From: Hydrogenovibrio sp. SC-1
GTDB taxonomy: Bacteria; Pseudomonadota; Gammaproteobacteria; Thiomicrospirales; Thiomicrospiraceae
DNA: 64,000 nt
Direction: 5' to 3'
Assembly: GCF_002848135.1 (NCBI RefSeq)
Contig: NZ_PKGB01000014.1
Location: forward strand, 1 to 64,000
In this document: piece after piece, positions 7,480 through 37,963 of the stretch
Layout of the letters: each line of letters starts with the position of its first letter
How positions within the stretch are numbered: the stretch's first letter is position 1
Program-made: the position numbers and the translations under genes
The notes under the pieces: generated by a model
Seen by the model: the letters and a program-made list of their open reading frames with translations, nothing else
Told to the model about the DNA's origin: nothing
Databases searched by the model: none

Positions 7480-7542
7480 AATTACAAATACTGGAACTTG
7501 ATATTTGTAATTGATAAAAAAATATTCGTTTTATTGCATTAT
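7480..7542 (+). promoter_or_regulatory. ICE regulon site 1: palindromic operator plus -10, upstream of 7584
   Basis: Arms AATTACAAATA (7480-7490) and TATTTGTAATT (7502-7512) are perfect inverted repeats around an 11-base spacer CTGGAACTTGA. A -10-like CATTAT (7537-7542) ends 31 bases after the tenth base of the right arm (7511), as at the other four copies. No -35 hexamer sits at the proper distance, which suggests an activator. The first gene of the downstream unit starts at 7584. Confidence 0.75.
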
Positions 7543-7583
7543 TTACTTGAATGAAAATCAAACCAATTCAGGTCAGGTGATGT

Positions 7584-8594
7584 ATGAGCGAAAACCTTTT
7601 AAATGAAGTTGAATACCCTTTAAACGGAGATTCAGAAAATCCAGAAATTTCTGAAATCGTCAAAAATGATAAACAAAAAAAAGCTTCCCGGCCAAAAAGA
7701 TCACTATTAAAGCTATTCTTTTTGATACTGAGTTTGCTACTACTGGCCGCAGTTGTTTTAGCCGGATTGTATATTTTTCAGTCTGGCCAAAATCCATTTA
7801 ATAGTGTTTTCAACCAAATATCTTTTGAATCCAAAACCTCAAAACTGGATGAACCTGAAGCTTCAAAACCTGATGGTATATCACCAGTGGAGGTTCAACG
7901 TCTTGCACTATTTGAGCCAGAACAGCCGATCCAAACGATGCGTATCAGAAATGATACTCATATCAAGAATGATATAGGTGAAACCCCAAATTTATTGAAC
8001 GGGCTTGAACCGGTATCAGATACCAAACTCACAAGCACTCAATCTGAAAGCATTATTGCTACCCAAGAGGTAGAACCTTCTCACGACCCCAGTATTACGC
8101 CTGTAAATCTTGCTAAATTTCATGATGACCTAATCGCTGAAATTGATTTAAAAGATAAAGAAATTCTCTTCCAAATTAATGCCCTTGAAAATGCCATTAA
8201 AAGTATTGAAAGATCAATAGAGGGATTAAACCAGAAGCTATCACGCAACTCTAAGAGAACCTCAGATAATGACCGAGAGCTTGCAAGTATCAAAAAGTTT
8301 GTTAGCGACGTTAATTCTAAAGTTAAAAAGGTCTCGTACCTGGTAAAAAAACAAGAGAAAAAAATACTCTCAAAAAAGGTTAAACAGGCATCCCCACCTG
8401 TACTTTCTTCCTTTGCTATTTGGAATGGTAAAAACGCTGTTTATGTAGAGTATCCAAAAGGCAAGTTAACGATGCTGTATGAGGGAGATATTGTTAATTC
8501 CTGGTTAGTTCAATCCATCAACTCAGTTAAAAAAGAGGCCGTATTCAAACGCGGGAATAAAACAGAAGTACTTTCCATTGGAGGTAAGAAATGA
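7584..8594 (+). CDS. Bitopic membrane protein with GspC/PilP-like C-terminal domain, ICE-encoded
   Basis: 336 residues: a cytoplasmic N-terminus of 40, one membrane span (about 41-66), a long periplasmic part with predicted coiled coil (about 165-265) and a C-terminal beta domain with LYEGDIVNSWLVQSINSVKKEAVF. That tail has the same G-D-I-V-x-x-W-x-V/I-x-x-I pattern as the end of PilP at the start of the window. It is the first gene after regulon site 1, so it is probably made with the transfer genes. It may connect the pilus or secretion base to the envelope. I do not recognise a named family. Confidence 0.65.
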   Translation: MSENLLNEVEYPLNGDSENPEISEIVKNDKQKKASRPKRSLLKLFFLILSLLLLAAVVLAGLYIFQSGQNPFNSVFNQISFESKTSKLDEPEASKPDGISPVEVQRLALFEPEQPIQTMRIRNDTHIKNDIGETPNLLNGLEPVSDTKLTSTQSESIIATQEVEPSHDPSITPVNLAKFHDDLIAEIDLKDKEILFQINALENAIKSIERSIEGLNQKLSRNSKRTSDNDRELASIKKFVSDVNSKVKKVSYLVKKQEKKILSKKVKQASPPVLSSFAIWNGKNAVYVEYPKGKLTMLYEGDIVNSWLVQSINSVKKEAVFKRGNKTEVLSIGGKK

Positions 8595-9346
8595 AACCAG
8601 TAATTGCAATTATTATGTTGATACTCTCTTGTCCTTCATGGGCCTTGGACAAAACGCCTAATGAGCAGGTAAGCGTTCAAAAAGAACGTAGTGATAGTTC
8701 TAATCTTGAAATATCAAAAGTTGAAGTCTCAAAGTTTGAAAAGAACTTTTGGGGGTTGTCTGATCAAGAATGGCAGCGCTATTTAAAGATCAAGCCGATT
8801 GCCCAAAAACTAGGGAAAACGTCAGTCAGTAGTACACCTCCAGAGATTTTAGCTATCTTTGCTGAAAATAATTCAGAACGCCGCCGGTTCGCTAAATTGT
8901 TTGCCGAAAAATACGATTTATACGTCGGAAACTTATTAGCCGTGAATGCTGCTATATCAAGTATTCAAGACGAAATGTATGCTCATAAACCAGTACTAAA
9001 CCCTAATAAAATGAATGCTCTTCGAGGTTCGTCTTTTAGAACCACTGATACGATTCAGTACTTCACTGAATTAAATTGCGATGATTGCGATATTGCTCTT
9101 CGAAAGTTAATACGTCAAGTGCGGCTCTATGGAATGAAGATGGATATCTTTTTTGTTGGTAAAAACGTATCTGAAGATCAGATCAAACAGTACGCTGAAA
9201 CCAATATTCCAAAGGAATTAGTTCTAAAAAATAAGCTTACTCTAAATGTTGACCCCGGCTTTGCAAAAAAACATGACCTACTAATTCCCGTGTCCTTTAT
9301 TTCTCATGACGGTGGGCCTCTTGAGAACCATGACCCGAACTTATAG
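8591..9346 (+). CDS. ICE transfer protein, PFL_4693-like (TIGR03759), thioredoxin-fold candidate
   Basis: 251 residues with a signal peptide ending near SWA (about residue 18), so periplasmic. A CxxC motif (C163-D-D-C166, in ELNCDDCDIA) lies in a region that reads like a thioredoxin-type fold. A protein of this kind precedes the lytic transglycosylase in MPF-G ICEs. It may handle disulphides in the Cys-rich transfer proteins downstream. The start overlaps the previous stop by 4 bases. The family name is from memory of the ICE core set and gene order. Confidence 0.65.
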   Translation: MKPVIAIIMLILSCPSWALDKTPNEQVSVQKERSDSSNLEISKVEVSKFEKNFWGLSDQEWQRYLKIKPIAQKLGKTSVSSTPPEILAIFAENNSERRRFAKLFAEKYDLYVGNLLAVNAAISSIQDEMYAHKPVLNPNKMNALRGSSFRTTDTIQYFTELNCDDCDIALRKLIRQVRLYGMKMDIFFVGKNVSEDQIKQYAETNIPKELVLKNKLTLNVDPGFAKKHDLLIPVSFISHDGGPLENHDPNL

Positions 9347-9848
9347 TTTTTTGTTATCAGTTCTACTATTTACGTGGAGTTGTTCTGCGGCCTCTAAGTA
9401 TGAATCGATATTTGATGAAGTCGGTCGTAACCTTGGGATCGACCCCATTATTCTATATGGCCTTGCTGTTCAGGAATCATCCCCACCTGACCAACATAGG
9501 CCTTGGCCGTGGACTATCAATGTTGCAGGAAAAGGCTATTGGTTTAACACGAAGTCTGAGGCAGTTGAAGCTATAAAGATTGCGACTCGGTTGGGTATTC
9601 AAAACATTGACATTGGAATGATGCAGATCAATTGGAAATGGCATGGCCACCACTTTAAATCATATAGTGAGGCACTGGATCCAAAAAGAAATTTAGAAAC
9701 TGCTGCAAGCATTTTAAAGACGTTTAAAAACTACCCGATTTTTGTGGCTATTGGTAAGTACCACTGCCCTTCTAAGGTTCCTTGGTGTGAAAGAGCTGCT
9801 CAAGAATATGCCGTTAAAGTAGTGAACAGGATTAAGTCATTATTATGA
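9330..9848 (+). CDS. Lytic transglycosylase (VirB1-like, SLT fold)
   Basis: An exported peptidoglycan-cleaving enzyme that opens the wall for the secretion channel. A hydrophobic leader is followed by YESIFDEVGRNLGIDPIILYGLAVQESS, where the Glu in QES is the expected catalytic acid. NIDIGMMQINWKWH matches the GxMQIN motif, and YAVKVVNRI the C-terminal helix. I chose the ATG at 9330 (172 residues), overlapping the previous gene by 17 bases. An upstream ATG at 9306 would put extra residues before the signal peptide. Confidence 0.85.
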   Translation: MTRTYSFLLSVLLFTWSCSAASKYESIFDEVGRNLGIDPIILYGLAVQESSPPDQHRPWPWTINVAGKGYWFNTKSEAVEAIKIATRLGIQNIDIGMMQINWKWHGHHFKSYSEALDPKRNLETAASILKTFKNYPIFVAIGKYHCPSKVPWCERAAQEYAVKVVNRIKSLL

Positions 9849-10345
9849 AAAAATTAGTTTTCGTTTTTCTCTCGATTGGGATATTCAATGTGGCATTTGC
9901 TACCCCGCCGACTTGGGGTGTTCTTGGGCCAACAAAGCCTTTTCAATCTCCTATTGGCCAAAATATCAACAGGCCTGTAAAACCTCAGATTAATCCGATG
10001 TCTTATGCTCAAATGGTAGGTAACAACTTGCCCATAAAGTCACGCCTTTCGCCAGGTAAGTTTGAAAGATTTCGCTCAGAACCAGCCGTTCGAGTGACAC
10101 GGCCTATTTGCCTAGTTGGTTACGATGATTTGTCTTTGTCATGGCTGGAAAATAATCGAGATGCATTGTCTCGATACAATGCCGTTTGCTTTGTGATGCA
10201 AGTTCAAAATTTAGCTCAAATGAAACGTATCAAACGTATTGCTGGGAAGATATTATTTCAACCGGTATCTGGTGAACAGATAGCTTTAGACTTTAAAGTT
10301 CCAGCTTACCCAGCATTAATTTATGATGGATGGGTGATCCAGTAA
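9845..10345 (+). CDS. ICE transfer protein, PFL_4695-like (TIGR03765)
   Basis: 166 residues with a signal peptide ending at AFA (about 19). The C-terminal half (RPICLVGYDD to FKVPAYPALIYDG) reads like the conserved part of the ICE family found between the transglycosylase and traD. That family ends with a hydrophobic YPxLI segment reminiscent of TrbC/TraW-type thioredoxin-like proteins. Starts overlapping the previous stop (ATGA) and ends in TAATG with traD. Function is unknown beyond a role in conjugation. Confidence 0.65.
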   Translation: MKKLVFVFLSIGIFNVAFATPPTWGVLGPTKPFQSPIGQNINRPVKPQINPMSYAQMVGNNLPIKSRLSPGKFERFRSEPAVRVTRPICLVGYDDLSLSWLENNRDALSRYNAVCFVMQVQNLAQMKRIKRIAGKILFQPVSGEQIALDFKVPAYPALIYDGWVIQ

Positions 10346-12525
10346 TGTTTTTTGGCCGACCAAAGTATCCCATTGAATCTTTATTAAGGCCACCGGTTGA
10401 GCTGTACTCTGCTTGGACGGCATGGTTATTGGCTGTAGTTGCTATTTATATGCCTTCATTGATTATGATGACTCAAGGTGTTGCTTATGTCGCTTGTGCA
10501 GCACTTTTTTTCGTTGGTCTAAACCGATTCTTTCAGGGTTACGCAATCTGGAAGTATCATAAGAATCTAGTTCGCCTTCCGTATTACGGTCTTAAGCCAC
10601 GCCAAATTCCAGTTAGTAATCGCCATTTATTTTTAGGTATGGGATTTAAATGGACTCAACGACATACGCAGCGGCTTCAGGATGCTTTAGATCCAGTTAA
10701 CGAGGGTTATTTGGAACCTGGATTTGGCTATCAATTGGGACGTAACTTAGAAAGCATTTATTTTAGTTGGCCAGTCCAAAAGGCATTATTTCCTTTTAGT
10801 TTTTTAGAAAAACATAGTTCCTGGTTTAAGGCCGCTTCTAAAAAATCAAAAAATGTGTGGTTAGCATTTTGGTTTCGAAGCATATTGGCTCCGCTTCCAC
10901 CAGTGGGCGGTAAACCAGCGATTCATGCTGTTGGTATGTTAGAAGGTGAAAAAGCCATAGTATTGCCATTGGGTGAGCGTGTTGGCCATACACTCGTGCT
11001 AGGTACAACTCGTGTCGGAAAAACTAGGCTTGCCGAGATCCTGATTACTCAAGATATCCGTCGTGGAGATGTGACATTTGTGTTTGATCCTAAGGGTGAT
11101 GCGGATCTGATGATGCGCTGCAAGATGGAAGCGGAAAGGTCTGGTCGCCCTTTCTACAATTTCAATCTTGGCTTTCCTGAAATATCTGCTAGGTATAACG
11201 GTATCGGTAATTTCTCAAAAATTACCGAACCGGCTGGACGTTTAACAGATGCCTTACCCTCTGAAGGTAACAGTGCAGCGTTTAAGGAATTTGGATGGCG
11301 GTTTGCCAACATTGTTATTCAAGCAGATGTCGCGCTTGGCAACAAGCCGCATTATCAACGCATCAGACGATACATTAATAACGTCGAGCCTTTATTAATG
11401 GATTATGGTCGTACAACCCTTAATAAACTGGGGCCTGAAGGCTGGCAACAAACCTATAACCAGATTCTCAATAACCTAAATCCCCAAACGCTTCCGTTCG
11501 CCTTGAAGGATCGCAACCCCGAAGCGATCGCATTATTAAAAACCGTTGAGAAGTTGGATTTTTATGAACCGGTGCTCGACGGCCTGTTATCTGCATTCAA
11601 ATATGATCGTTCTTATTTCGATAAGATCGTCTCCTCTCTTGGCCCGCTTCTGGAGAAACTAACGACCGGCAGAATCGCTGATTTAATTGCTCCGAATTAT
11701 GATGATTTAACAGATAAGCGACCAATCTTTGATTGGATGTCGGCCATTCGACAAGAAGCTGTGGTTTATGTTGGTCTTGATGCTTTATCTGACTCAACCA
11801 TTGCAAGTGCAGTCGGCGCTTCGATGTTTGCTGATTTAACTTCCGTCTCTGGGTTTATATATAAACACGGAATTGACTTTGGATTACCTTCTGGACTCAT
11901 AGAAAAGATTAAATCCGGTAAGTTAAAGATTTCCATTCATGCAGACGAATTCAATGAGCTTGTTGGAGATCAGTTTATACCAATGGTCAATAAGGCTGGC
12001 GGTAGCGGCTTCCAAATTACGGCCTATACCCAGACAATTTCAGATATTGAGGCTAGAATCGGCTCAAAATCCAAATCCGGTCAGATTCAAGGTAACTTCA
12101 ACAATTTAATATTGTTACGAGTTAAGGAACCCGAAACAGCTGAAGTTTTGACTAAGCAGCTTCCTAAAGTTCGTGTTAATGAGTTGATGCAGGTTTCTGG
12201 TGCAAATGACTCATCTAACCCAGGAAGTGGTGTGGACTTCACCTCAAAGAATGAGGATCGACTTAGTACACGAGAAGTTGAAATGCTGACTAATTACGAC
12301 ATTATTTCATTGCCGAAAGGTCAGGCATTCGCATTGATCGAGGGCGGTAACTTATACAAGATCAGAATGCCTTTGCCGGAAAAGGAAGATGATAAAAATA
12401 TCACGACAGACTTCAAAAAAGCCTATGAACAAATGAAGGCTAAATACAAAACAGGCGAAGGTCTTTTGTCTAAAGATAACCATTGGCTTGATCTAATGGA
12501 TGACATAGATAAGGTGGCTGCATAA
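10345..12525 (+). CDS. traD: Conjugative coupling protein TraD (SXT/TOL type, VirD4 family)
   Basis: The coupling ATPase that brings the relaxase-DNA complex to the secretion channel. Two N-terminal membrane spans (about 20-60) precede a cytoplasmic motor with Walker A GTTRVGKTRL (about 220-229), FVFDPKGDADL and a Walker B-like VVYVGLDAL (about 472). SIHADEFNEL and GSGFQITAYTQT are conserved motor motifs. I prefer the ATG at 10345, overlapping the previous TAA as TAATG, giving 726 residues; an ATG at 10330 in frame would add 5. Confidence 0.9.
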   Translation: MFFGRPKYPIESLLRPPVELYSAWTAWLLAVVAIYMPSLIMMTQGVAYVACAALFFVGLNRFFQGYAIWKYHKNLVRLPYYGLKPRQIPVSNRHLFLGMGFKWTQRHTQRLQDALDPVNEGYLEPGFGYQLGRNLESIYFSWPVQKALFPFSFLEKHSSWFKAASKKSKNVWLAFWFRSILAPLPPVGGKPAIHAVGMLEGEKAIVLPLGERVGHTLVLGTTRVGKTRLAEILITQDIRRGDVTFVFDPKGDADLMMRCKMEAERSGRPFYNFNLGFPEISARYNGIGNFSKITEPAGRLTDALPSEGNSAAFKEFGWRFANIVIQADVALGNKPHYQRIRRYINNVEPLLMDYGRTTLNKLGPEGWQQTYNQILNNLNPQTLPFALKDRNPEAIALLKTVEKLDFYEPVLDGLLSAFKYDRSYFDKIVSSLGPLLEKLTTGRIADLIAPNYDDLTDKRPIFDWMSAIRQEAVVYVGLDALSDSTIASAVGASMFADLTSVSGFIYKHGIDFGLPSGLIEKIKSGKLKISIHADEFNELVGDQFIPMVNKAGGSGFQITAYTQTISDIEARIGSKSKSGQIQGNFNNLILLRVKEPETAEVLTKQLPKVRVNELMQVSGANDSSNPGSGVDFTSKNEDRLSTREVEMLTNYDIISLPKGQAFALIEGGNLYKIRMPLPEKEDDKNITTDFKKAYEQMKAKYKTGEGLLSKDNHWLDLMDDIDKVAA

Positions 12526-13199
12526 TGTCTGACTCTGCATCTCAAGCTGAGAATACAAAGAAGGGACTATTCCTAACCCTTTTGGATATAGTTGTCGCTT
12601 TGATAATGACTTACCTCGGATCTCTTTTTCTATCCGTCATTATTGAACTTCTGGGAATCTTTTTTAATTGGTGGGATCTACCAGGTGCGTTACACGCAAA
12701 GGCATCTCTTAAAAAAGAGCTGGAATGGTTAAATTCTGATTTTAAAGAAATAATGATTGCCCCAGTTGAAATCGCGCTTTTCGCCTTAAAATTAATGTAC
12801 GAATATGTAATTGAGGCAAGCCATTTAACTTGGTTAATTGAAAAGCTGCAAGGAACTGTCTTAGAGCAATATTTTATTGCCATAGCATATACCATCGAAC
12901 TCAATGCTGTGCGATTAGCAGTGATCGTAATGTCTCTCCCAGCCTTCATTCTATTTGGAATCTATGCCATTGTAGACGGCTTGAATGAAAGAGACGTTAG
13001 AACTTGGTCAGGTGGCCGAGAAAGTTCATTCGTATATCATCATACAAAACGTTGGATTACAACCTTTATTTACCTTCCGATAATCGTTTATTTATCTTCG
13101 CCCTGGAGCATTCACCCATCGTTATTCATGCTAGCTTTCGCTTTACCTTTTTCTTATGCGATTTGGCTTGCCACAATGTACTTTAAAAAATATATGTGA
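12525..13199 (+). CDS. ICE membrane protein, PFL_4697-like (TIGR03747)
   Basis: 224 residues with about four to five membrane spans (near 15-45, 120-145 as an amphipathic part, 130-155, 180-200 and 200-222). Overlaps traD by one base in TAATG. In MPF-G ICEs a membrane protein of this size always follows traD, which is the main reason for the call. Probably partners the coupling protein in the inner membrane. No catalytic motif. Confidence 0.65.
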   Translation: MSDSASQAENTKKGLFLTLLDIVVALIMTYLGSLFLSVIIELLGIFFNWWDLPGALHAKASLKKELEWLNSDFKEIMIAPVEIALFALKLMYEYVIEASHLTWLIEKLQGTVLEQYFIAIAYTIELNAVRLAVIVMSLPAFILFGIYAIVDGLNERDVRTWSGGRESSFVYHHTKRWITTFIYLPIIVYLSSPWSIHPSLFMLAFALPFSYAIWLATMYFKKYM

Positions 13200-13207
13200 G
13201 GCTCGAA

Positions 13208-13960
13208 ATGATTTCTAAAATTGAAAAAAGCTTCTACCTAGCCTATCAACCAATCGTCGATCGAAATAAGAAAATTGTCAAATATGAAGTTTTATCTCGA
13301 TGGGATTTTGAGCAAATCAAGATAACGCCACAAGAACTTATTGATTGGGCTGAAGACGATATTGGAGGAATCATTTTATTAGACGCGATGGTTTTTAAGC
13401 GATTTACAAAAGATTTCAACGAGCTGAAATTGAAAAATAACGTTAAATTCTGTTTGAATGTCAGCCCAATAACGCTTGGTATGGATCCAAACTTCATTTT
13501 AAATATTGAGAGCGTTATAAAATCGACAACCGCCAAGCGCGTTGAGGTCGAAGTTTTGGAAAGTAAGGTCAAGCCTGAACTTGAGTTTTCAGTACAAACC
13601 GCACTTAGGTTGATTTGCCAAAAAGGCATAGGGATATCGCTTGATGACTTTGGGAATGGCCACGCTTGTGTAAGAAAGTTAATTCATGGCTATACAAATA
13701 TTAAAATCGATGGTGAATTAGTTTCCAAAATACATTTGTGCAGCAGAACAAAACATGTTGTGTCCACCGTTATTGAGTTGGCACACACACTGGGCAAAAC
13801 CGTTACCGCAGAAAAAATTGAGTGTACCGAACAGTATCATGAGCTACTGGCCATTGATTGTGATTTTTTTCAAGGATTCTTTTTTGGTCGTCCGATGAAG
13901 CTTGAAGACCTAAATAAACCTTGTTATTCAGCGCCTTTCTTTTGGGAGAAGGTTGTTTAA
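13208..13960 (+). CDS. EAL-domain protein, probable cyclic di-GMP phosphodiesterase
   Basis: 250 residues forming a stand-alone EAL domain with no sensor or membrane part. The metal and substrate positions look kept: EVLSRW (the EAL motif, as EVL), NVSP, VEVLES, LDDFGNGHA, IKIDGE, AEKIE and QGFFFGRP. So hydrolysis of c-di-GMP is plausible despite the degenerate signature. I chose ATG 13208, with GTGAGG just upstream; a GTG at 13196 is in frame and overlaps the previous stop. It is the last gene of the traD block and ends at the edge of regulon site 2. Confidence 0.8.
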   Translation: MISKIEKSFYLAYQPIVDRNKKIVKYEVLSRWDFEQIKITPQELIDWAEDDIGGIILLDAMVFKRFTKDFNELKLKNNVKFCLNVSPITLGMDPNFILNIESVIKSTTAKRVEVEVLESKVKPELEFSVQTALRLICQKGIGISLDDFGNGHACVRKLIHGYTNIKIDGELVSKIHLCSRTKHVVSTVIELAHTLGKTVTAEKIECTEQYHELLAIDCDFFQGFFFGRPMKLEDLNKPCYSAPFFWEKVV

Positions 13961-14023
13961 AATTACAAATACCGAAACTTGATATTTGTAATCGCCACCC
14001 TTCCCTTCACTTTTTGGCATGAT
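13961..14023 (+). promoter_or_regulatory. ICE regulon site 2: palindromic operator plus -10, upstream of 14051
   Basis: Arms AATTACAAATA (13961-13971) and TATTTGTAAT (13983-13992), spacer CCGAAACTTGA. The -10-like CATGAT (14018-14023), in the context TTTTTGG, ends 31 bases after the right arm. The same TTTGGCATGATT context occurs at site 3. It begins one base after the stop of the EAL gene and drives the secretion genes from 14051. Confidence 0.75.
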
Positions 14024-14050: not shown

Positions 14051-14524
14051 ATGAACAAATTACGTTTAATTTCTTTAATTTTTTTTGGGACTTCACTATT
14101 GGCTGGTTGTTCAACCAGTGGTGATGTGAAGCATAAAAACCAGGAAGTCTCTAAGACTCCCATTCAGCCACCGGTTAACAAACCGCAGTATCAAGCAAAC
14201 AAAGTTGAGGTACTGCCACTCGACTCTACAACTCAGTTACGCCCGGTTTCGATTAAACCTTCTTTTTATAGCAGCTATGAAGCTTCAGATATGTCCTCTT
14301 CAGAAAGAAAGGCATTACTGAACATTGTGTCACACCTGCAAGAAATCAATATCTTGATCCGCACTGCTGAGACTCAACAAAACCCAGATCAGAGAATTAA
14401 ATTCCGATATGACTGGCTCAGAAAAGACCTTTATAAGATCAATCGCGGTATATCAGACCACTTAAGCAGTCCAGAATCTCAGCCTCGCTCTTTTGAACCT
14501 GTTATGGGTGAATACCGGCGATGA
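14051..14524 (+). CDS. RAQPRD-family ICE lipoprotein
   Basis: 157 residues starting MNKLRLISL with a lipobox LLAGC (Cys20), so a lipoprotein. The C-terminal part, RIKFRYDWLRKDLYKINRG to ESQPRSFEPVMGEYRR, matches the RAQPRD family that marks MPF-G ICEs, with SQPR in place of AQPR. It is first in the secretion operon under regulon site 2. An in-frame ATG at 13979 lies inside the operator and would bury the signal peptide, so it is rejected. Confidence 0.8.
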   Translation: MNKLRLISLIFFGTSLLAGCSTSGDVKHKNQEVSKTPIQPPVNKPQYQANKVEVLPLDSTTQLRPVSIKPSFYSSYEASDMSSSERKALLNIVSHLQEINILIRTAETQQNPDQRIKFRYDWLRKDLYKINRGISDHLSSPESQPRSFEPVMGEYRR

Positions 14525-14745
14525 ACTTTGATGTCTTTGAAAGTATTGCTGGAGATGTTTCAGTCTTTTCGGCCTTATTTTTAGGACTGTTCATTATGCT
14601 TGTGTTTGCAAGAGTTGGATTGACTGTGATCAGTCACTTTAAGTTAATTCAAAGTGAAAAAATCAAATTAGAAGAATTCACTACTTACACAATTTTTCTA
14701 TTTATTTTTTTAATCATTGCGGTTGCTTTTACGCAATCCATTTAA
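14521..14745 (+). CDS. Small ICE membrane protein, PFL_4701-like (TIGR03758)
   Basis: 74 residues with two membrane spans (about 14-36 and 55-73). Overlaps the RAQPRD gene by 4 bases (ATGA). Size, topology and position match the small membrane protein that follows RAQPRD in MPF-G secretion systems. Likely an inner-membrane component; function unknown. Confidence 0.65.
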   Translation: MNFDVFESIAGDVSVFSALFLGLFIMLVFARVGLTVISHFKLIQSEKIKLEEFTTYTIFLFIFLIIAVAFTQSI

Positions 14746-14760
14746 GCTAGGAGTTTATAA

Positions 14761-15150
14761 ATGAAATCATTCTCTTTTTTTGCGTTAGCTGTTGTTATTG
14801 GGTCATGGGTGCTTAGTTATTCACCTGATGCATTTGCTGTTGTTCCCCAGCAGCCCGATGTTCAGTTGGGTGACATCTTACAAAACGATGCCCCACTAGA
14901 CCAAAAGATCATGAAGATTTTTGGATGGGTCATCACTGTCATTGGTGCCTTTGTCATTATCGGTATTTTAGTGGTAGTCGCTCAAACTGCGATTGGCGAC
15001 CTGAATAAAGTACGTGACGATAAAGAATATAAGAACTTCACCATGACGGACTTTATTCGAAATATTATTTTGGGTGTTGTGGCCATGATGATCTCAATTC
15101 CAATTGGTTACATGCTGTTTTCGTATGGAACGAACATGGCAAATGGTTAA
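14761..15150 (+). CDS. ICE membrane protein, PFL_4702-like (TIGR03745), VirB2-like candidate
   Basis: 129 residues: a signal peptide ending at AFA (about 26) and two membrane spans (about 55-80 and 105-125) separated by a charged loop. Signal peptide plus two spans is the profile of VirB2/TraA-type pilin-like subunits, and this position in MPF-G systems is held by PFL_4702. AGGAG lies about 8 bases before the ATG. Confidence 0.65.
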   Translation: MKSFSFFALAVVIGSWVLSYSPDAFAVVPQQPDVQLGDILQNDAPLDQKIMKIFGWVITVIGAFVIIGILVVVAQTAIGDLNKVRDDKEYKNFTMTDFIRNIILGVVAMMISIPIGYMLFSYGTNMANG

Positions 15151-15156
15151 ACAGAG

Positions 15157-15525
15157 ATGGAGAAGCATAATCTCATTATTGCGAACCTTGATGAAGAACT
15201 GCCCGTATTTAAAGGTGCGACGCTTCCCGAGGTTCTTGTGATTGCAAAATATTCATTTTATATCAGCTTTCTTGTTGGCCTTTTAATCGGATTTATTTTG
15301 ATTAGTTGGATGCTGATCATTGTGCTTTTCTTTTCAATTTTTGGAACCATCGCTCTGATATGGATCTCTTCGGCAAGTTTGAAATCAGTCAAAAGAGGCA
15401 AGCCACCTGGCTACTTTATGCAACTCATTGATATTTTCATGTTTAAGCATTTTCAGAAAAAAACCTACTTCTTACTTAAAAAGTCACGTTGGTTTGGAAA
15501 TAGAGGAATAAATCAAAATGTCTGA
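15157..15525 (+). CDS. Conjugative transfer membrane protein, TIGR03750 type (VirB3-like)
   Basis: 122 residues with a hairpin of two membrane spans (about 32-53 and 54-72) in the first half and a basic cytoplasmic tail. VirB3/TraL-type proteins have this form and follow the VirB2-like gene, as here. Overlaps the next gene by 8 bases. GAGATGG-type ribosome binding is weak, so coupling to the upstream gene is likely. Confidence 0.65.
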   Translation: MEKHNLIIANLDEELPVFKGATLPEVLVIAKYSFYISFLVGLLIGFILISWMLIIVLFFSIFGTIALIWISSASLKSVKRGKPPGYFMQLIDIFMFKHFQKKTYFLLKKSRWFGNRGINQNV

Positions 15526-16204
15526 TCCGTACAAAGATAAAAGAGCAAATGACATTTCCCATATAAATACGTTGAGGTTTGTTATCGGATCATTGATTCT
15601 TACGCTGATTATTTCACTCGGGATTAATTTTATTCAAGCTCAAGAACCAGAAGCTCAAAGACTTTCATTGCCGCCTGAATTGAAATACGGAGCTTCATTA
15701 AGTACAGGGAAAATTAATTCATGGGAGATTTATAACTTTACTGGAGCGATCTATCAGCAATTAAACACTTGGCTAACAAATGGCGAGACTGACTATATTG
15801 ATAATATCAAAAAGTACAGCGCATTGTTCACCCATCGATTTATCGCTCAAAAACATAAAGAATTCACCAAGAAAAAAAACCGCCTAGAACTCAAAGATCG
15901 TCAAAGATCCCTCTCCCCGTTAGGAGACTACTCAGAAACCGATCACTGTGGCAATTATCATGATACGTGCGTTAAAAACTTAGGCGCTGGCCGCTGGAAA
16001 GTATGGCTGGACATTAACCTTAGAGAGTGGCAACAAGCATCTAAGGACACCCTGCCTTATGAATTGAAAAACTTGAAATTGAGAGTGCCATTTCTAGTTA
16101 TTTACGATGACACTAATACTGAATATAACCCCTGGGGGTTAAAGATCGACTATGAGTTTACAAATGAAATTCAAAAAATTTCACTTGAAGGAAGTCAGAA
16201 GTGA
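15518..16204 (+). CDS. ICE transfer protein, PFL_4703-like (TIGR03746), VirB8/TraE-like
   Basis: 228 residues with a short cytoplasmic N-terminus, one membrane span (about 22-42) and a periplasmic domain. This is the bitopic layout of VirB8/TraE core scaffold proteins, and the gene lies between the VirB3-like gene and the VirB9-like region, as expected. The GTG start of the next gene overlaps its stop. Confidence 0.7.
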   Translation: MSDPYKDKRANDISHINTLRFVIGSLILTLIISLGINFIQAQEPEAQRLSLPPELKYGASLSTGKINSWEIYNFTGAIYQQLNTWLTNGETDYIDNIKKYSALFTHRFIAQKHKEFTKKKNRLELKDRQRSLSPLGDYSETDHCGNYHDTCVKNLGAGRWKVWLDINLREWQQASKDTLPYELKNLKLRVPFLVIYDDTNTEYNPWGLKIDYEFTNEIQKISLEGSQK

Positions 16205-17028
16205 GAATTCTATTTTTTCTAGTTATAACGTTAGTCAGCCAGGTTGCACTATCAGATGAGCATATCGTGTGGGACAAAACACCAATCGAATTACATTTAT
16301 CACTAGGAAATGAAAGGCAGGTTGTTTTCCCTGACGATATTGAAATTGGGATATCGAATTCAGCCATAAATCGATTCAAAACCATTACCAGTGTTGACAA
16401 TAGAATGTTTATTGAACCTAGTGTTCAGTTTGAACGACAACGCATTCTAGTTAGGGAATCAAAAACGGGTATTAACTATGTTATTTATTTATCCGTAAAG
16501 ACAGATACTTCTCAGTTAGATCCAGTAGCAATAATTCACAAAGAGAACAAGGTCAAGCCTATTCCTAGTCAAGCTGACTCAGCTAGTAAGAATAGGTCTG
16601 CTGATAAATTATTAAACTCGTATCCTTATTTGACTCGTTATGTTGCTCAACAGCTATATGCCCCCAAAAGATTAGTTAGAAATAATCCTGCGATCCAACG
16701 AATCTCGGTACTAAACAAAAGCTTTACTTCGTTATTCAGATGTACAAGCGGCTCCTTAAGCTGTACTTCGATCGTTGCGACTCCCCTCATCTCTTATAAA
16801 ACGGGCCTACTATACGCCAGTGCTTTAAGGATCAAAAATGTATCGGATTATGCTATCGATATTGATCCAAGACTGGTTAAATCAGATATGAGCCCCGGCG
16901 CACTGTTAGCAGCAACATCTATGCATGGTCGGTTGCTTCCTTCAAGGTATGGCGACAAATCAGAAACTGTGATCATCATCATTCACAAAAGACCGTTATT
17001 AGCTATGTTTTTGGGGTTAAATCAATGA
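16201..17028 (+). CDS. ICE transfer protein, PFL_4704-like (TIGR03749), TraK/VirB9-like
   Basis: 275 residues starting with GTG in GTGA, overlapping the previous stop. Signal peptide ends near VALS (about 18). The periplasmic part is rich in beta structure, as in TraK/VirB9 proteins, which form the outer-membrane ring with the VirB10-like protein encoded next. One Cys pair (C180/C187 region, FRCTSGSLSCTS). Stop overlaps the next ATG. Confidence 0.7.
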   Translation: MRILFFLVITLVSQVALSDEHIVWDKTPIELHLSLGNERQVVFPDDIEIGISNSAINRFKTITSVDNRMFIEPSVQFERQRILVRESKTGINYVIYLSVKTDTSQLDPVAIIHKENKVKPIPSQADSASKNRSADKLLNSYPYLTRYVAQQLYAPKRLVRNNPAIQRISVLNKSFTSLFRCTSGSLSCTSIVATPLISYKTGLLYASALRIKNVSDYAIDIDPRLVKSDMSPGALLAATSMHGRLLPSRYGDKSETVIIIIHKRPLLAMFLGLNQ

Positions 17029-18410
17029 AAGGCAGAAACCCATTAGTCATTATTTTCTTTTTGGTTGCCCTTGCATTTGTGGCCGGTATCATCTTTTTTT
17101 CTGGTGGAAATGATGAAATCACAGTTACCGGTAGAGGCGAACAGAATGCTAAAAACGATGTCAAAAATTCTAATAGCAGCTCACCAGATGCAGATACCCT
17201 GCCAACCGAATTTAAAAAACTCATTGGTGACATTCAGTATTTAAAAAATAGGGTTGAATCATTGGAATCCGTAAAGGACAGTGTTGGAGTTTTAAACTCT
17301 AATAATAAGATCAAGGATGGATCCAGTCTAGCACTTAAAAACGGGATGGAGTCTTTATTAACACCCGCAGAAAAAGAGCCCTCAGTCACAACCCTGCCCA
17401 ATGAAATAATCAGTCCGCCTTCGACGGACAGCTCAAATAATTCAACACAAGCCATTCTTGATAGTCTTGTACCGCCCATTATTCCGACAGGGAAAAAAAA
17501 GACACAAGAGCAAGACTTTTCCGAACCTGATCAGGTTGTTTGGATTAAACCGCTTGATAGCGGCTATTCTAAGAAAAAAAACAATAGTCGTTTAACATCG
17601 AATTACTCTCCCGGTGAAGTAAATCAAGATCAACCTGGCCTACTCGATGAGGTTGGTTCAAAAGCTAAGAACACTCTTGGTTTAGAGTCTGGCAAGGATC
17701 CAAGGTTTACGATTCCTCATGGTTCAATCATCGCGGATTCAATGGCAGTAACCGCTTTTATTGGCAAAATCCCAGTGAAAGGTCAACTTCAGGATCCTTG
17801 GAAATTTAAACTCAGCACTGGCCAAAATATCATTATGCCTAATGATCATGAGTTACAGGGATTGGAAAAAACAATTATTGAAGGAACAGCCATCGGAGAC
17901 TTGAATTTAAGATGTGTCACAGGTCGGATTGAAACGATGACTTTCATCTTTACCGATGGTCAAATTATGACTCATAAAGCCACCAAACCAAAAGATGGAA
18001 TGGGCTACATTTCAGATTCGCATGCTAACCCTTGCATACCAGGTGAGCTAATCACTAATGCCCCTCAAATCATTTCCCAAATGAGTTTGCTAGGCATTGG
18101 AGAAGGCTTTAGCAAATCCTATGCTGATGCAGAAACTCAAACTCGAAATAATTTAGATGGCACAACAAATCAAGTCGTCATAGGAGATCACTTCGCTAAT
18201 GCCGGTTTTAATGGCATATCAAGTGGTTTTTCTGAAGTGAAAAAATGGTTTTCTGACCGAATTGGCCAGTACTTTGATGTGATCTATGTGCCTGGTGGCC
18301 AACACGTCGACATTCATATTTCTGAAGAAATTAAAATTGATTACGATCCAATGGGAAGGAAGGTTAAATATGACACGCATTCTGACGCTACTCATGGCTA
18401 TATGGATTAG
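17025..18410 (+). CDS. ICE transfer protein, PFL_4705-like (TIGR03752), TraB/VirB10-like
   Basis: 461 residues. One membrane span near the N-terminus (about 6-26), a long Ser/Asn/Pro-rich linker (about 35-210) with a short coiled coil (about 65-85), then a C-terminal barrel-like domain starting near FTIPHGSIIADSMAVTAF. That layout is VirB10/TraB: anchored in the inner membrane and spanning to the outer membrane. It overlaps the next lipoprotein gene by 41 bases. Confidence 0.75.
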   Translation: MKGRNPLVIIFFLVALAFVAGIIFFSGGNDEITVTGRGEQNAKNDVKNSNSSSPDADTLPTEFKKLIGDIQYLKNRVESLESVKDSVGVLNSNNKIKDGSSLALKNGMESLLTPAEKEPSVTTLPNEIISPPSTDSSNNSTQAILDSLVPPIIPTGKKKTQEQDFSEPDQVVWIKPLDSGYSKKKNNSRLTSNYSPGEVNQDQPGLLDEVGSKAKNTLGLESGKDPRFTIPHGSIIADSMAVTAFIGKIPVKGQLQDPWKFKLSTGQNIIMPNDHELQGLEKTIIEGTAIGDLNLRCVTGRIETMTFIFTDGQIMTHKATKPKDGMGYISDSHANPCIPGELITNAPQIISQMSLLGIGEGFSKSYADAETQTRNNLDGTTNQVVIGDHFANAGFNGISSGFSEVKKWFSDRIGQYFDVIYVPGGQHVDIHISEEIKIDYDPMGRKVKYDTHSDATHGYMD

Positions 18411-18747: not shown

Positions 18748-18750
18748 CTT

Positions 18751-21630: not shown

Positions 21631-21647
21631 TTTTTAAAGGATTTTTT

Positions 21648-22061: not shown

Positions 22062-22062
22062 G

Positions 22063-24601: not shown

Positions 24602-24757
24602 TTTGACTCCAAATTAGGTTTTATCTCAGCATTCACCAACATAAACTATTTCAAGACCAAAAACTAAAAGAAATATCTGATAACTAGAAAATAGTTTCAG
24701 TAACCCTAATAATTTGAGAATATTCATATTTCAGACGAATCTAAACGGAAATAATAT

Positions 24758-26251: not shown

Positions 26252-26260
26252 GGTTAATTT

Positions 26261-27901
26261 ATGTACTCTGATAGCTACTTAGAAATTGTCTTGACGGCAT
26301 CAGGCTGGGATTTATATTCAAAGTTTGCAATGTTCATTTACACTTTGAACCTACACTACGTCCCTTTCATTGCTGTAATGGTTAAAAATTGGTGGGATAC
26401 CCGGCGCAGTCAAAATGAGGGAATAGCATCAATCGTTGAATGGCGAAGAAATTATACCGATATCTATCCAATGATGATTGTCGTGATTCTATTCTGGATA
26501 CCTAATAACAACACTACATTCAAGGCATCTGAGCATATCCAGCAAATCCAAAGTGAAATAAGTAATGATAATAGCATTGCTTACCAGCTTGGAAGCTCTC
26601 AAGGCGTTGAAGGGTATGGTGAAATCCCAATTCCCCCTGGATGGTGGATTTTGATGTATGGAACAAAGGCGGCCATAAATCAAATTACTATTTGGGTTGA
26701 CTCCCAATACTCTCCTACATTAACGAATTTACTTCGAACATTTAACTCCATGAAGATCAAAGATGAAGAACTTCGAAATGAAACGAATTCATTTTTTTCA
26801 TCTTGTTACTTGCCCTCCCTTGGCCGCTATCAAAATGAAAAAAAACAACCTGTTCCAGTCCCTTCAGAAAATGATGATATAAATTACATCGGTAACAATT
26901 TGTTTCAACTAACTCCAGGCTATTACATATCATGCGGAAGGTCAGATTACAATAACAATACATGCTATGGGGAACACGAGATCATGCCCTATGCCACGGC
27001 AGATCGATATGGCGTTCAAACCCTTTATTTACTAGACACCCCAAATGCAAACGGTGATATTGTCCAGTATGCAAAGTCTCCTTCTTGCTATACATGGTGG
27101 ACAGGCAATGATGATACTTCTTATTCTGGATATGAAAGAGAAGGATTAAGGGTGAGGTTGTCAGACCATGCAGCGTCTCAATTAGCAGTTCAAGAAATAT
27201 TTGGCAGTGATGGGCATAGTCTAGTAACTGGAAACTCAGGGCTTACATCATCAGTATCAAATTTATGGGATTGGGCTCAACTAACATTTGGATCAGAAGA
27301 TGCAAGAGATGTTCTGATTAAGAGGTTGTTAAAAACTGACCCACCAGATATGCTCGGCCAAAAAGACCGAAAATATGCAAATGATGGAAGCCTCATGCAA
27401 GGCATTTGGGATTGGGTTCAGGGAGTTTTTGCAAGTATTGGTGCAGGTGTTGCAAGCTTTTCACTAGGCATCGTTTTAGAGCTATTAAAGCCAGGATTAT
27501 TGATGGTTCAGGCAGGTATTATTTTTACCATAGTCATGATGATTGCAATCATATTGCCCATCGGTGGATTCAAGGTCGAAACTGTTGTAAAACTTATGTT
27601 TTATTTGATAGGCGCTTTATTGCTGTCATTATGGTGGCATATTGCTGACTGGATAAACGAAGGTTTGATTGGCATCATGTACCCTGATTTAGGCGGTACT
27701 GAAGATATGGATGTGTCGATGAATACCTTTTTATATCTTATAGCCACGTTTTTCTTTTATCTTGGAATACCAATGTATTTTGGAAAAATGATGGCTTTGG
27801 CTGGTCATGAAGCATTTGAAATGGTAGGTGATGAATTTAAAGGGCTTAGATCGACAGGAGATAAAGGGGCAGGAGCAGCTAAAAAATCATTAGGTAGATG
27901 A
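26261..27901 (+). CDS. traG: TraG N-terminal-like mating-pair protein
   Basis: 546 residues. N-terminal hydrophobic segments (about 20-45 and 72-92) flank the short RRSQNEG region typical of TraG-N proteins, then a large periplasmic loop with Cys (about 100-380), then three membrane spans (about 395-430, 440-465, 490-515). This matches the inner-membrane half of TraG, which works in mating-pair stabilisation and often entry exclusion, without the long C-terminal domain of F TraG. It closes the secretion operon and faces the minus-strand gene at 27926. Confidence 0.75.
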   Translation: MYSDSYLEIVLTASGWDLYSKFAMFIYTLNLHYVPFIAVMVKNWWDTRRSQNEGIASIVEWRRNYTDIYPMMIVVILFWIPNNNTTFKASEHIQQIQSEISNDNSIAYQLGSSQGVEGYGEIPIPPGWWILMYGTKAAINQITIWVDSQYSPTLTNLLRTFNSMKIKDEELRNETNSFFSSCYLPSLGRYQNEKKQPVPVPSENDDINYIGNNLFQLTPGYYISCGRSDYNNNTCYGEHEIMPYATADRYGVQTLYLLDTPNANGDIVQYAKSPSCYTWWTGNDDTSYSGYEREGLRVRLSDHAASQLAVQEIFGSDGHSLVTGNSGLTSSVSNLWDWAQLTFGSEDARDVLIKRLLKTDPPDMLGQKDRKYANDGSLMQGIWDWVQGVFASIGAGVASFSLGIVLELLKPGLLMVQAGIIFTIVMMIAIILPIGGFKVETVVKLMFYLIGALLLSLWWHIADWINEGLIGIMYPDLGGTEDMDVSMNTFLYLIATFFFYLGIPMYFGKMMALAGHEAFEMVGDEFKGLRSTGDKGAGAAKKSLGR

Positions 27902-34544: not shown

Positions 34545-34973
34545 TTAAGCAATAAATTTCGGAATTTTGCCTTCCGAAATATGAACGGTCTTTGAGAAAT
34601 TCACCTGGCAAGCCCATGAAAAGCCTTTCTCATATTCACGAGCCTCATCGATATCCGTCTGGTTATTTGCAGCAACATCGAATCTAAACTCCAGAACATC
34701 ATCACCTTGATTTGAAGTGATGCAAACTTCCAACTGGCACTCAGCCTGATTTGCGACAACCTCATCATCTAAAACATATCGAACTGGTATAAATGGATCA
34801 GTAAAGAAACTAGAAACACCCCATTTTTTGCGACAGTCAATTTCTATCTCAGAATTGATAACTTCTAAAACTTTATCCGCTAACATTACGAAACTTCCAA
34901 AATCATGACCTCGATGCGACACATCAATGAACTTATCGTTTTTTGCATCAAAAATATTCATTACTTTAATCAT
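34545..34973 (-). CDS. Hypothetical protein under ICE regulon site 5 (possible mobilisation accessory)
   Basis: 142 residues, soluble, acidic, with no motif I can name (begins MIKVMNIFDAKNDKF). AAGGAGAT lies about 5 bases before the ATG. Its promoter carries the same operator and -10 spacing as the transfer operons, so it is switched on with transfer. It is the first gene beside the GC-rich hairpin block. In IncA/C and SXT elements the gene next to oriT under the master activator is mobI; this could be an analogue by position, but I see no sequence evidence for homology. Confidence 0.5.
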   Translation of the reverse strand: MIKVMNIFDAKNDKFIDVSHRGHDFGSFVMLADKVLEVINSEIEIDCRKKWGVSSFFTDPFIPVRYVLDDEVVANQAECQLEVCITSNQGDDVLEFRFDVAANNQTDIDEAREYEKGFSWACQVNFSKTVHISEGKIPKFIA

Positions 34974-35016: not shown

Positions 35017-35078
35017 ATTAAATAACAATCAAGAATGTCGAGTACCAGTTACAAATAACAACCTCCAGTATTTGTAAT
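35017..35078 (-). promoter_or_regulatory. ICE regulon site 5: palindromic operator plus -10, upstream of 34973
   Basis: Plus-strand arms TTACAAATA (35049-35057) and TATTTGTAA (35069-35077), 11-base spacer. Read on the minus strand, the spacer CTGGAGGTTGT matches site 1 (CTGGAACTTGA), giving the orientation. The -10-like TTTAAT (minus strand, 35017-35022) ends 31 bases after the tenth arm position, as in the other copies. Confidence 0.7.
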
Positions 35079-35943: not shown

Positions 35944-37545
35944 ATGAAAAAGCTTCCGATAGTTCTAAATACCCCCGCGCGAGTGGCGATTGCGTTGGCT
36001 TTGATCGTGCTGGTGGGCGAGTTGTTGATCATGGTGCTTTTCGAAAACATAAATACCACCCTCCTGAAAGATCCATTTCTGAAAAATCTGTTCATTTATG
36101 TTTTTGATCCCGTCGCGCTCACCGCGATTGTTTCTCCCGCTCTTTATCTCCTGGTTTTCCGTCCGCTGAATCAGCAAGCCAAGCTTGAACGGCAACTCGC
36201 TAAATCGCGCAGTCTCAAGGCCGATAGTAAAATTGAGCATCTGGCTTTCTTTGATCAGCTCACCGGCCTGCCCAACCGGCGGCTTCTTATGGATCGGCTT
36301 GATCATGCATTCGTTACCAGCTCGCGTAGCGGCCGGGAGGTTGCGCTGTTGTTGCTTGACCTGGACAATTTCAAGGACATCAACGACACCCTCGGCCATG
36401 ACGTCGGTGACTTGCTGCTACAACAGATCGCGCAACGCCTGGAGTCCTGTGTGCGCAAAAGCGATACAGTGGCTCGTCTGGGCGACGACGAATTCGTAGT
36501 GATGTTGGAAGGCCTGAGCAAGCAACACATTGAAACCGCAGCAATACAGGCGAAAGACGTCAGCGAAAAAATACTCGCTACGCTCAACCAGCCTTACCAG
36601 CTTGCCATGGACGAATATCACTGCACCGCCAGTATTGGTGTAGTTCTTTTCAGCAATCACGGCACGACTGTGGCAGAGCTGCTGAAACGAGTCGACATCG
36701 CCATGTATCAGGCCAAGAAAGCAGGTCGCAACACGCTGAGATTCTTTAATCCGAAAATGCAGGATGCCATTAACGCCCGCACATCCCTCGTATGCGAATT
36801 ACACAAAGCACTTGAGAAGGGGCAATTTCATATGTATTACCAGATTCAGGTGGACAGTTCGCACCGTCCATTGGGAGCAGAAGCATTGATCCGCTGGATA
36901 CATCCCGAACACGGTCTGCTACCACCTGACCAATTCATTCCGCTGGCGGAAGACACCGGACTGATAGTGCCCATCGGGCAATGGGTGCTGGATACGGCTT
37001 GTGCCCAACTCAAGGCATGGGAGCAAGATGCGCTCACCTGTGACCTCGTTCTGGCGGTCAACGTCAGTGCCAGACAATTTCGCCAGGCTGATTTCATGGC
37101 TCAAGTACAATCCACCGTGCAGCGCCATGCCATCAACCCGATGCGACTCAAATTAGAGTTGACCGAAAGCATACTGGTAAAGAGCATCGAAGACACCATT
37201 ACAGCCATGAACACATTGAAAGGTATCGGCATCCAGCTCTCGTTGGACGACTTCGGCACTGGCTATTCATCCCTGCAATACCTCAAGAAGCTGCCGCTCG
37301 ATCAGCTCAAGATAGACCAGTCGTTCGTGCGCGACCTTGCCGCCGACAGCAGCGATAAAGCCATTGTTCGCACCATCGTTGCTATGGCACAAAACCTGGA
37401 ACTGGACGTCATTGCTGAAGGGGTAGAGACGGAAGAGCAACAACAACTTCTCCTGAGCAAGGGGTGTACCCACTACCAGGGATATCTGTTTGGCAAGCCG
37501 GTGCCGATTGAGCAGTTTGAGGCGTCATTAGGGCCATTCGATTGA
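35944..37545 (+). CDS. GGDEF-EAL protein (cyclic di-GMP turnover), membrane anchored
   Basis: 533 residues. Two membrane spans (about 13-33 and 50-72), a GGDEF domain (about 95-260) whose signature is RLGDDEFV, and an EAL domain (about 275-530) with all key motifs: EALIRW, NVSARQF, LELTES, LDDFGTGYSS, LKIDQSF, AEGVET, QGYLFGKP. The phosphodiesterase half looks active; the cyclase half is uncertain because of GDDEF. GGGAGA precedes ATG 35944. Codon use is much more G+C-rich than in the surrounding ICE genes, so it was probably acquired separately. Confidence 0.88.
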   Translation: MKKLPIVLNTPARVAIALALIVLVGELLIMVLFENINTTLLKDPFLKNLFIYVFDPVALTAIVSPALYLLVFRPLNQQAKLERQLAKSRSLKADSKIEHLAFFDQLTGLPNRRLLMDRLDHAFVTSSRSGREVALLLLDLDNFKDINDTLGHDVGDLLLQQIAQRLESCVRKSDTVARLGDDEFVVMLEGLSKQHIETAAIQAKDVSEKILATLNQPYQLAMDEYHCTASIGVVLFSNHGTTVAELLKRVDIAMYQAKKAGRNTLRFFNPKMQDAINARTSLVCELHKALEKGQFHMYYQIQVDSSHRPLGAEALIRWIHPEHGLLPPDQFIPLAEDTGLIVPIGQWVLDTACAQLKAWEQDALTCDLVLAVNVSARQFRQADFMAQVQSTVQRHAINPMRLKLELTESILVKSIEDTITAMNTLKGIGIQLSLDDFGTGYSSLQYLKKLPLDQLKIDQSFVRDLAADSSDKAIVRTIVAMAQNLELDVIAEGVETEEQQQLLLSKGCTHYQGYLFGKPVPIEQFEASLGPFD

Positions 37546-37900
37546 TTTTATGAATGGCTACTGATCGAAAGCAGCCGTTCATTAACCGATATAGATAACC
37601 TCATTCCAATGGTGCCAGGATTTGTCCGGAACGGGAAGCCAAACAGGACTCGAACAAATGACCGAAGTTGGCCAAACTACGACTGTCGGCAACCAGTACC
37701 ACTGATTGGTTTTCAGCCATTCTACTACCATCATGGGTGACACTAGGTTGCTCCATAATACGCACTTAGGGCTCTGTAATTCTTTGATACTCGTCCCAAT
37801 CGCCACTAAAACCCTAGACACAAATAAGGCCAGATAAGTAATTTTCAAGCCTAGCCCGTTTTATAGAAACGGGCTTGATAGAATCACAAATACCATTCTG
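37546..37900. other. Intergenic region with hairpin, end of the GC-rich segment
   Basis: No convincing gene; the 37582-37848 minus-strand frame looks spurious. AGCCCGTTT (37853-37861) pairs with AAACGGGCT (37867-37875), a probable terminator-like hairpin. An extra single half-site CACAAATA lies at about 37,885, just before regulon site 4. Confidence 0.35.
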
Positions 37901-37963
37901 AATTACAAATACACATCCTTGATATTTGTAATTTCATCCTCCAATTCCCGTTTCTGCAACAAT
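37901..37963 (+). promoter_or_regulatory. ICE regulon site 4: palindromic operator plus -10, upstream of 37999
   Basis: Arms AATTACAAATA (37901-37911) and TATTTGTAATT (37923-37933), perfect 11-bp inverted repeat, spacer CACATCCTTGA. The -10-like AACAAT (37958-37963) ends 31 bases after the tenth arm base (37932). Downstream are the duplicated unknown gene and the relaxase. Confidence 0.72.

Follow-up and report, generated by a model that had tools for sequence, protein, structure and literature searches.

A palindromic operator at a fixed distance from the −10 element before transfer units of a Hydrogenovibrio integrative and conjugative element and its relatives, probably read by a DUF2857-family activator

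We analysed a 64-kb stretch of Hydrogenovibrio sp. SC-1 DNA (positions 1 to 64,000 of contig NZ_PKGB01000014.1; hereafter the window), which carries the right-hand 42 kb of an integrative and conjugative element (ICE), and in particular a palindromic sequence that recurs before five of its gene units. Window position 1 is the start of the contig (C14) and lies inside the ICE. The ICE part encodes a mating-pair-formation type G (MPF_G; TIGR037xx) type IV secretion system (T4SS), a cluster for a type IV pilus, a relaxase of the MobH family and, adjoining tRNA-Met, a tyrosine integrase. Among the window proteins, TIGR03744, TIGR03747, TIGR03755 and MobH were matched above cut-off and TIGR03759 below its cut-off.

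An exact search for TTACAAATA-N11-TATTTGTAA recovered five mismatch-free copies in the window, all found again by a matrix built from other ICEs, and offset analysis placed a −10-like hexamer downstream of each. Copy 1 (7482..7510, plus strand; CATTAT at 7537..7542) precedes unit 1 (7584..13960, plus), which, judged by family matches and orthologues in relatives, encodes a 336-aa protein of unknown function, the TIGR03759 protein, SLT and DUF2859 proteins, a TraD-like coupling protein, a TIGR03747/DUF4400 protein and an EAL protein. Copy 2 (13963..13991, plus; CATGAT at 14018..14023, with TGn before it) precedes unit 2 (14051..23169, plus; start codon ATG 14051), which runs from a RAQPRD protein to a TraC-type ATPase and TraU and, by family matches and comparison with relatives, is the core of the TIGR037xx T4SS. 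Copy 3 (24758..24786, plus; CATGAT at 24813..24818, also with TGn) stands before the TIGR03755 and TraG_N proteins of unit 3 (24857..27901, plus; family matches). Copy 4 is read on the minus strand (35049..35077; TTTAAT at 35017..35022) and precedes unit 4 (34545..34973, minus), a 142-aa protein of unknown function that has a homologue in a related genome (G052, 67520-67951) by sequence comparison and whose structure model, with a predicted local distance difference test (pLDDT) score of 35, is too poor for use. Copy 5 (37903..37931, plus; AACAAT at 37958..37963, with TGn) precedes unit 5 (37999..42022, plus; family matches), in which a 315-aa protein, the MobH relaxase and the tyrosine integrase probably share a single transcript.

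An earlier note on this DNA had proposed a five-copy palindromic operator standing 50-80 bases before the first gene of ICE units. The gaps from palindrome to start codon are 73, 59, 70, 75 (copy at 35049) and 67 bases, a range of 59-75 that agrees with this proposal; of its coordinates, 24758 and 35049 were right and 7480, 13961 and 37901 each 2 bases low. No further match was found in the window even at up to 3 mismatches, shuffles of the window led us to expect 0.13 matches, and none of 100 shuffles reached five. In the 2.45-Mb assembly the sole extra match (contig C4) has 3 mismatches, with none at 2 or fewer; within the assembly, the exact palindromes are confined to this ICE. A de novo scan of the window ICE for repeated gapped palindromes returned the operator as the only family with at least three copies. 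Further afield, the exact motif occurred in its own genome alone among 62 host-family genomes (1/62), and in a collection of 84,980 species it was found in 53 stretches from scattered phyla with one palindrome each (one bin has two contigs), occurrences that we read as chance, judged without a computed expectation. The spacer, described earlier as conserved, asymmetric and ending in CTTGA, has that end in only four of the five sites; TTG is present there in all five when read along transcription. The pilus had also been counted among the units switched on together, for which the window offers no demonstration: the operator at 7482 lies past the pilus genes, ahead of the TIGR03759/traD unit, and the pilus operon's own promoter lies to the left of the window.

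All five hexamers start 41 bp from the palindrome centre, as expected from the earlier claim of one fixed distance. Within the window, four of the five fit xAxxxT, the exception being TTTAAT at 35049, and that count is equalled at some offset in 141 of 3000 shuffles; by itself, the window gives weak and non-decisive evidence for the distance. The reported absence of a −35 element also held, with no −35 visible and a best TTGACA match of 2-3/6 compared with a mean of 2.5 at random places. What makes the −10 distance decisive is that the sites of relatives keep it.

These relatives were identified through a TraC search of the host order (62 genomes), which returned three other genomes (G026, G030 and G052; 59-61% identity), and their ICE regions were mapped gene by gene and then scanned for repeated gapped palindromes. 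The search of related ICEs that had been suggested as a check was productive: own versions of the operator stand at corresponding promoters of the three ICEs and of two Methylophaga plasmids. G026 carries TTACAA-N17-TTGTAA before the unit leading into the pilus genes, the TIGR03759 unit and the RAQPRD unit; G030 carries CCAAGTGCA-N7-TGCACTTGG at three exact and two imperfect places, including the relaxase and acaB-like units; G052 has two copies of TCTAAAAA-N11-TTTTTAGA; the Methylophaga (M.) pinxianii plasmid has five copies of TAACCGG-N13-CCGGTTA; and M. thalassica has the operator at four places (one imperfect), with the hexamer at 41 bp in three. The letters of the operator vary between elements, and its centre, asymmetry, promoter position and −10 distance are retained.

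For a joint count we used 25 sites from six elements (window 5, G026 4, G030 5, G052 2, M. pinxianii 5, M. thalassica 4). Three of these depart from perfect symmetry (G030 71255 and 33653, M. thalassica 17282), the G026 site at 18725, upstream of the relaxase unit, was found by eye, and degenerate G052 sites were left out. The best xAxxxT offset was again 41 bp from the palindrome centre (20/25), and 23 of the 25 sites have the hexamer at 40 or 41 bp, the misses being window 35049 and M. thalassica 79999; the maximum over all offsets in 3000 shuffles was 11. With the window, G026 and G030 alone, 12/14 fit at 41 bp, against a shuffle maximum of 8. These numbers should be read considering that the two Methylophaga plasmids have homologous flanks, and hence sites that are not fully independent, and that M. 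thalassica was added after the 40-41 bp distance had already been noticed. TGn precedes the hexamer at 11/16 host-family sites versus 0/9 Methylophaga sites.

Cross-validation with a matrix of operator plus −10, trained by leaving out one element at a time, gave a similar picture. Trained on 11 sites from G026, G030 and G052, the matrix ranked the five window sites 1-5 over 42.3 kb on both strands (scores 16.0-22.9; next match 8.9), and without G030 it ranked that element's five sites 1-5 (14.6-29.2; next 9.4). Without G026, the top five comprised the four known G026 sites and 70539, and in G052 the three top matches precede expected unit starts (59925, 43129 and 82783) with low scores. Further operator-like matrix sites were seen at G026 oriented 70539 and 21971 and at G030 36326, the last two being alike. 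Directly before the TIGR03755 gene of G026 and G030, site inspection and the matrix revealed no operator. In the window, the corresponding promoter at 24758 lies just past a 458-aa minus-strand gene (23225-24786 region, between traU and the TIGR03755 gene; no Pfam or NCBIfam match) and resembles a copy of the promoter at 13963.

We read these sites, from their arrangement, as a conserved activator operator with its predicted centre near −53. The earlier suggestion of a directional activator operator near −50 that coordinates the transfer units is strongly supported by the conservation, across elements, of position, asymmetry and −10 distance. It might be argued that the palindromes are instead repressor operators that silence the transfer genes until a signal arrives: repressors often have perfect symmetric sites, and regulons of identical sites occur with repressors too. 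We regard this as improbable, considering that the sites lie upstream of the would-be −35 without covering the −10, that they keep an exact distance, and that the window promoters are devoid of a −35, like SetCD-activated promoters (PMC4344509). Still less probable is a non-regulatory role in partition or recombination, or a spread of the copies with a small mobile repeat. Such a role would suit the ParB-like proteins encoded by the three close relatives, the similar flanks of copies 2 and 3, and the other repeated palindromes in these ICEs, but outside the site and the −10, copies 1, 4 and 5 have little in common, and the sites stand at promoters, oriented with the gene, and hold to one −10 distance even though their letters vary from element to element.

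If the sites bind an activator, its gene may be sought in the left module of the close relatives, which encodes ParA, TIGR03764 ParB-like (BisD family), DUF2857 (BisC family), AcaB-like and TopB-like proteins, with parA, bisD (TIGR03764) and bisC (DUF2857) adjacent. A DUF2857 gene was present in 7/7 chosen elements (G026, G030, G052, M. pinxianii, Hin1056, Stutzerimonas and Nitrogeniibacter) and also in M. thalassica, which makes 5/5 palindrome-bearing relatives. TIGR03764 was found in 6/9 genomes or records, all three close relatives included; it was found neither in the two Methylophaga plasmids nor in the window's assembly. Because the Methylophaga plasmids have the operator and DUF2857 and no TIGR03764 match, the operator appears to go with DUF2857 rather than BisD, as far as few elements tell. 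In our view, the palindromes are likely to be bound by a single activator that belongs to the DUF2857 (BisC) family and is encoded by the element itself. The earlier expectation of a new regulator is borne out only in part, given that DUF2857/BisC is already known as half of BisDC and that its binding sites are unconfirmed in the ICEclc paper of 2022, which states that the actual BisDC binding sites need confirmation by further studies (PMC9286271). According to the passages of that paper on its promoters, BisDC overexpression raises reporters of the tested transfer promoters except bisR, and a 27-bp motif is common to 8/9 bimodal promoters (PMC9286271).

The regulator of the window ICE itself can be judged only from relatives, because the assembly lacks the left half of this ICE. 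A query of the assembly with the ICE ParA gave no match at 1e-10, an empty answer that alone shows little; the ICE TopB query gave only a 39% match on contig C2, which is probably chromosomal; and inspection of both ends of all 40 remaining contigs, of which the eight smallest were read whole, revealed no continuation of window position 1. At the end of contig C23 (L116, 3707-3991) there is a partial integrase, cut by the contig end and ~47-50% identical to the relatives' ICE integrases, which may represent a second element or a remnant. To the right, the window (42418-45772) and G052 (oriented 86949-89996) have homologous chromosomal genes in the same order past both ICEs, and for this reason the two ICEs probably share an insertion site, beside tRNA-Met in the window.

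Another regulator of the same module could bind the operator, with DUF2857 merely travelling along: an AcaB-like protein (PF08900/TIGR03761), the ParB-like BisD, or a small unannotated protein. AcaB-like genes occur in G026, G030 and G052, and one G030 operator precedes an acaB-like gene. We nonetheless think this unlikely, though a stronger contender than repression. Both Methylophaga plasmids have the operator with no TIGR03764 match, and no AcaB-like (PFL_4669) gene was named in the parts of these plasmids covered (~99/221 kb and ~100/320 kb, with incomplete gene tables). In IncC, as described in the relevant part of a published account, AcaB activates the acaCD operon and it is AcaCD that activates the transfer promoters, acaB among them (PMC10954446).

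To evaluate what kind of protein DUF2857 may be, we built a profile from 12 members and compared it with FlhD and FlhC, using 60 column shuffles and 27 decoy families as controls. BisC has been reported to have a DUF2857 domain and similarity to FlhC, and BisD is described there as having no FlhD domain (eLife 2020, PMC7423338). Our profile matched FlhD with its N-terminal part (score 26.3, E 0.0019; shuffles ≤15.2, decoys ≤19.2), and its C-terminal part aligned with FlhC over 107 columns (score 18.3; shuffles ≤17.7). FlhD was also among eight weak matches of a PDB profile search (E 0.34). The FlhC and FlhD families PF05280 and PF05247 gave no match in the eight DUF2857 proteins scanned nor in the window's own incomplete assembly, and a match of DUF2857 to plasmid AcaC-like and AcaD-like proteins was discarded, being equalled by shuffles (10/60 and 1/60, respectively). 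For a model of one DUF2857 protein (L262), E. coli FlhC was the best VIA match (Z 8.0, residues 75-192) and FlhD reached Z 6.4 on residues 1-60, with unrelated helical rows up to Z 6.7; the Foldseek E-values of 2.0 and 4.9 were not significant. The Methylophaga DUF2857 proteins are longer and have a repeated N-terminal part, in which residues 1-110 match positions 14-111 (E 1.7e-7) and residues 90-276 match positions 35-194 (E 1e-12). Taken together, DUF2857 is probably a single-chain fusion of an FlhD-like and an FlhC-like part, the FlhD half being backed by the profile and both halves moderately by the predicted fold.

Our interpretation needs to be weighed against several observations that speak against it, beginning with the distribution of the sites. 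In 23 other TraC-bearing stretches, we recognised no palindrome family with this promoter layout. These stretches came from 27 TraC matches of the class outside the window's own (G358 and second copies in G277 and G098 were omitted), and several are short or cut by contig ends. Exact-palindrome families of at least three copies were absent from 19/23; G256 has tandem and dispersed repeats, those of G263 are mostly tandem, and G306 and G320 have palindrome families that were not analysed for promoter layout. A pairwise intergenic search of 14 elements (13 of the 23 stretches and Hin1056) gave no clear operator. Hin1056 and the Stutzerimonas and Nitrogeniibacter plasmids encode DUF2857, and yet no palindrome family of this layout was recognised in them; the first two contain short palindromes of other kinds, and Nitrogeniibacter none. 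Because these 26 other stretches, many of them partial, showed none that we recognised, strict palindromes arranged in this way characterise only a subset of elements and are not a rule of the transfer type. Among the relatives that do have the operator, it is not the commonest palindrome family in the de novo scan, where others have equal or more copies, and the operator families were picked for standing before operons. The matrix missed the G052 site at 45797. The Methylophaga sites match a −35 at 3-4/6 bases, and a weak −35 may exist there.

The identity of the regulator also meets objections. The window's own (incomplete) assembly has no DUF2857, FlhC, FlhD or TIGR03764 match, and the left module of the relatives holds other candidate DNA-binding proteins (AcaB-like, ParB-like). 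With regard to the proposed fusion, the FlhC profile score of 18.3 is not significant against the decoys, 3/27 of which score higher. The L262 model was made from a single sequence (pLDDT 70, with values of 43-62 for the greater part of the FlhD-like region), and L262 comes from a viral-collection contig and not from a palindrome-bearing element. In ICEclc, the legend of S3 Fig gives 152 bp to the mapped start of the PinR promoter; if this is counted from the motif, ICEclc would not share the −53 geometry (PMC9286271).

A few further observations concern the same elements. The de novo scan of the relatives also returned palindrome families that have no relation to these promoters, e.g., AACTGT-N11 (six copies, G026), GCTTAC-N4 (six, G030) and GCTTGC-N3 (seven, G052), and repeated palindromic units recur over G052 oriented 39945-81505, including GGGGATAC-N21-GTATCCCC (six copies) and others. 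In the Stutzerimonas plasmid NZ_CP091175.1, TGTTGCG-N3-CGCAACA occurs at five places (e.g., 3902, 9152, 15736, 19496 and 81566), or at eight if the arm is shortened. It may serve in partition or as a different operator; a gene for an Arc-family regulator lies beside bisD in this plasmid. ICEhin1056 (NC_011409.1, 6000-6124) has three copies of TGTAAAG-N3-CTTTACA just before its acaB-like (PFL_4669) gene. In searches of viral contigs, TIGR03755 and four of five DUF2857 queries matched nothing, and the fifth gave L262.

We propose that a symmetric dimer of the activator would occupy about −67 to −39, with its centre near −53, and that it would stand in for the missing −35 and bring RNA polymerase to a −10 that is weak and, in the host family of the window, often preceded by TGn. 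The secretion channel, the coupling protein, the relaxase and integrase, and one gene of unknown function would then come on together. For the window ICE, the DUF2857 gene would be expected in the left half that the assembly lacks. In elements that have BisD, this protein would play an assisting part; it is probably not the palindrome reader, given that the search of the two Methylophaga plasmids returned no member of the BisD family. A recent paper describes BisD as sliding away from bisS boxes and as a coactivator together with BisC (PMC13393423).

More tentatively, and with rather less confidence than in the DUF2857 assignment, it is possible that a DUF2857 homodimer alone reads the element-specific palindromes 40-41 bp from the −10. 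A dimer of the Methylophaga protein, with a D-D-C arrangement (274 aa), would then rebuild D4C2 and dispense with BisD, and a protein of this kind would control the window ICE, the unit-1 EAL protein being a possible YdiV-like brake or link to cyclic di-GMP (c-di-GMP). This EAL-domain protein (13196-13960) is encoded by the last gene of unit 1 and has a similar protein in G026 at 47365; a GGDEF-EAL protein is encoded near unit 4 (35920-37545), and the two together suggest a link to c-di-GMP. E. coli YdiV, an EAL-like protein, is reported to inhibit FlhD4C2 (PMC3510510). The window EAL protein, however, retains the EVL and DDFGNG motifs.

One of the closest known systems is the BisDC regulon of ICEclc. 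Of the features of the ICEclc type, MPF_G T4SS genes, MobH and a motif common to most transfer promoters are present in the window, and bisC and bisD gave no match in its incomplete assembly: the transfer genes are of the TIGR037xx type in both, with a MobH relaxase here, a shared motif stands before most transfer units (27 bp in ICEclc), and the close relatives of the window ICE have adjacent parA, bisD and bisC genes, like ICEclc. Probable differences lie in the operators described here, 25-29 bp palindromes whose letters differ between elements, and in the two Methylophaga plasmids, where operator and DUF2857 occur with no BisD match. A study of BisD as a cytidine triphosphate (CTP) clamp, published in Nucleic Acids Research (NAR) in 2025, reportedly exists and may already contain part of the present findings.

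The parallel with SetCD of SXT/R391 and AcaCD of IncA/C drawn in the earlier note is a good one. In these systems, too, one activator serves many transfer promoters from a site at or upstream of a weak or missing −35, although their secretion-system type differs from that here. SetCD boxes are described as directly preceding a −35 that is hard to recognise (PMC4344509), and the acaB-like gene behind an operator in G030 is reminiscent of the AcaCD regulon, which includes acaB. Differences are the length and letters of the sites (19 bp for SetCD; 28 bases, with other letters, in the listed AcaCD matches) and the proteins, which here have no FlhC or FlhD Pfam match. FlhD4C2 is likewise an activator with a long inverted-repeat operator, and DUF2857 resembles FlhD in its N-terminal part and, less surely, FlhC in its C-terminal part. 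The FlhDC box, as given in a published description, spans 42-44 bp with two 16-bp repeats and a 10-12 bp spacer (consensus AAYGSSNNAAATAGCG-N10-12-CGCTATTTNNSSCRTT; PMC9962212), whereas the operators here are 25-29 bp long, have other letters and do not follow that consensus, and one chain would replace two. FlhDC-like control of transfer is already known, and the variant described here stands out by its element-specific palindromes, the rigid −10 geometry and the likely single-chain DUF2857 activator; for the idea of a fusion we claim no priority. The recurrence of an operator with fixed −10 geometry in six elements makes a DUF2857 recognition code testable. If DUF2857 is indeed an FlhD-FlhC fusion, the activators of the SXT, IncC and ICEclc type and the flagellar switch would form one structural class, of which the plasmids with no BisD match would show a minimal version.

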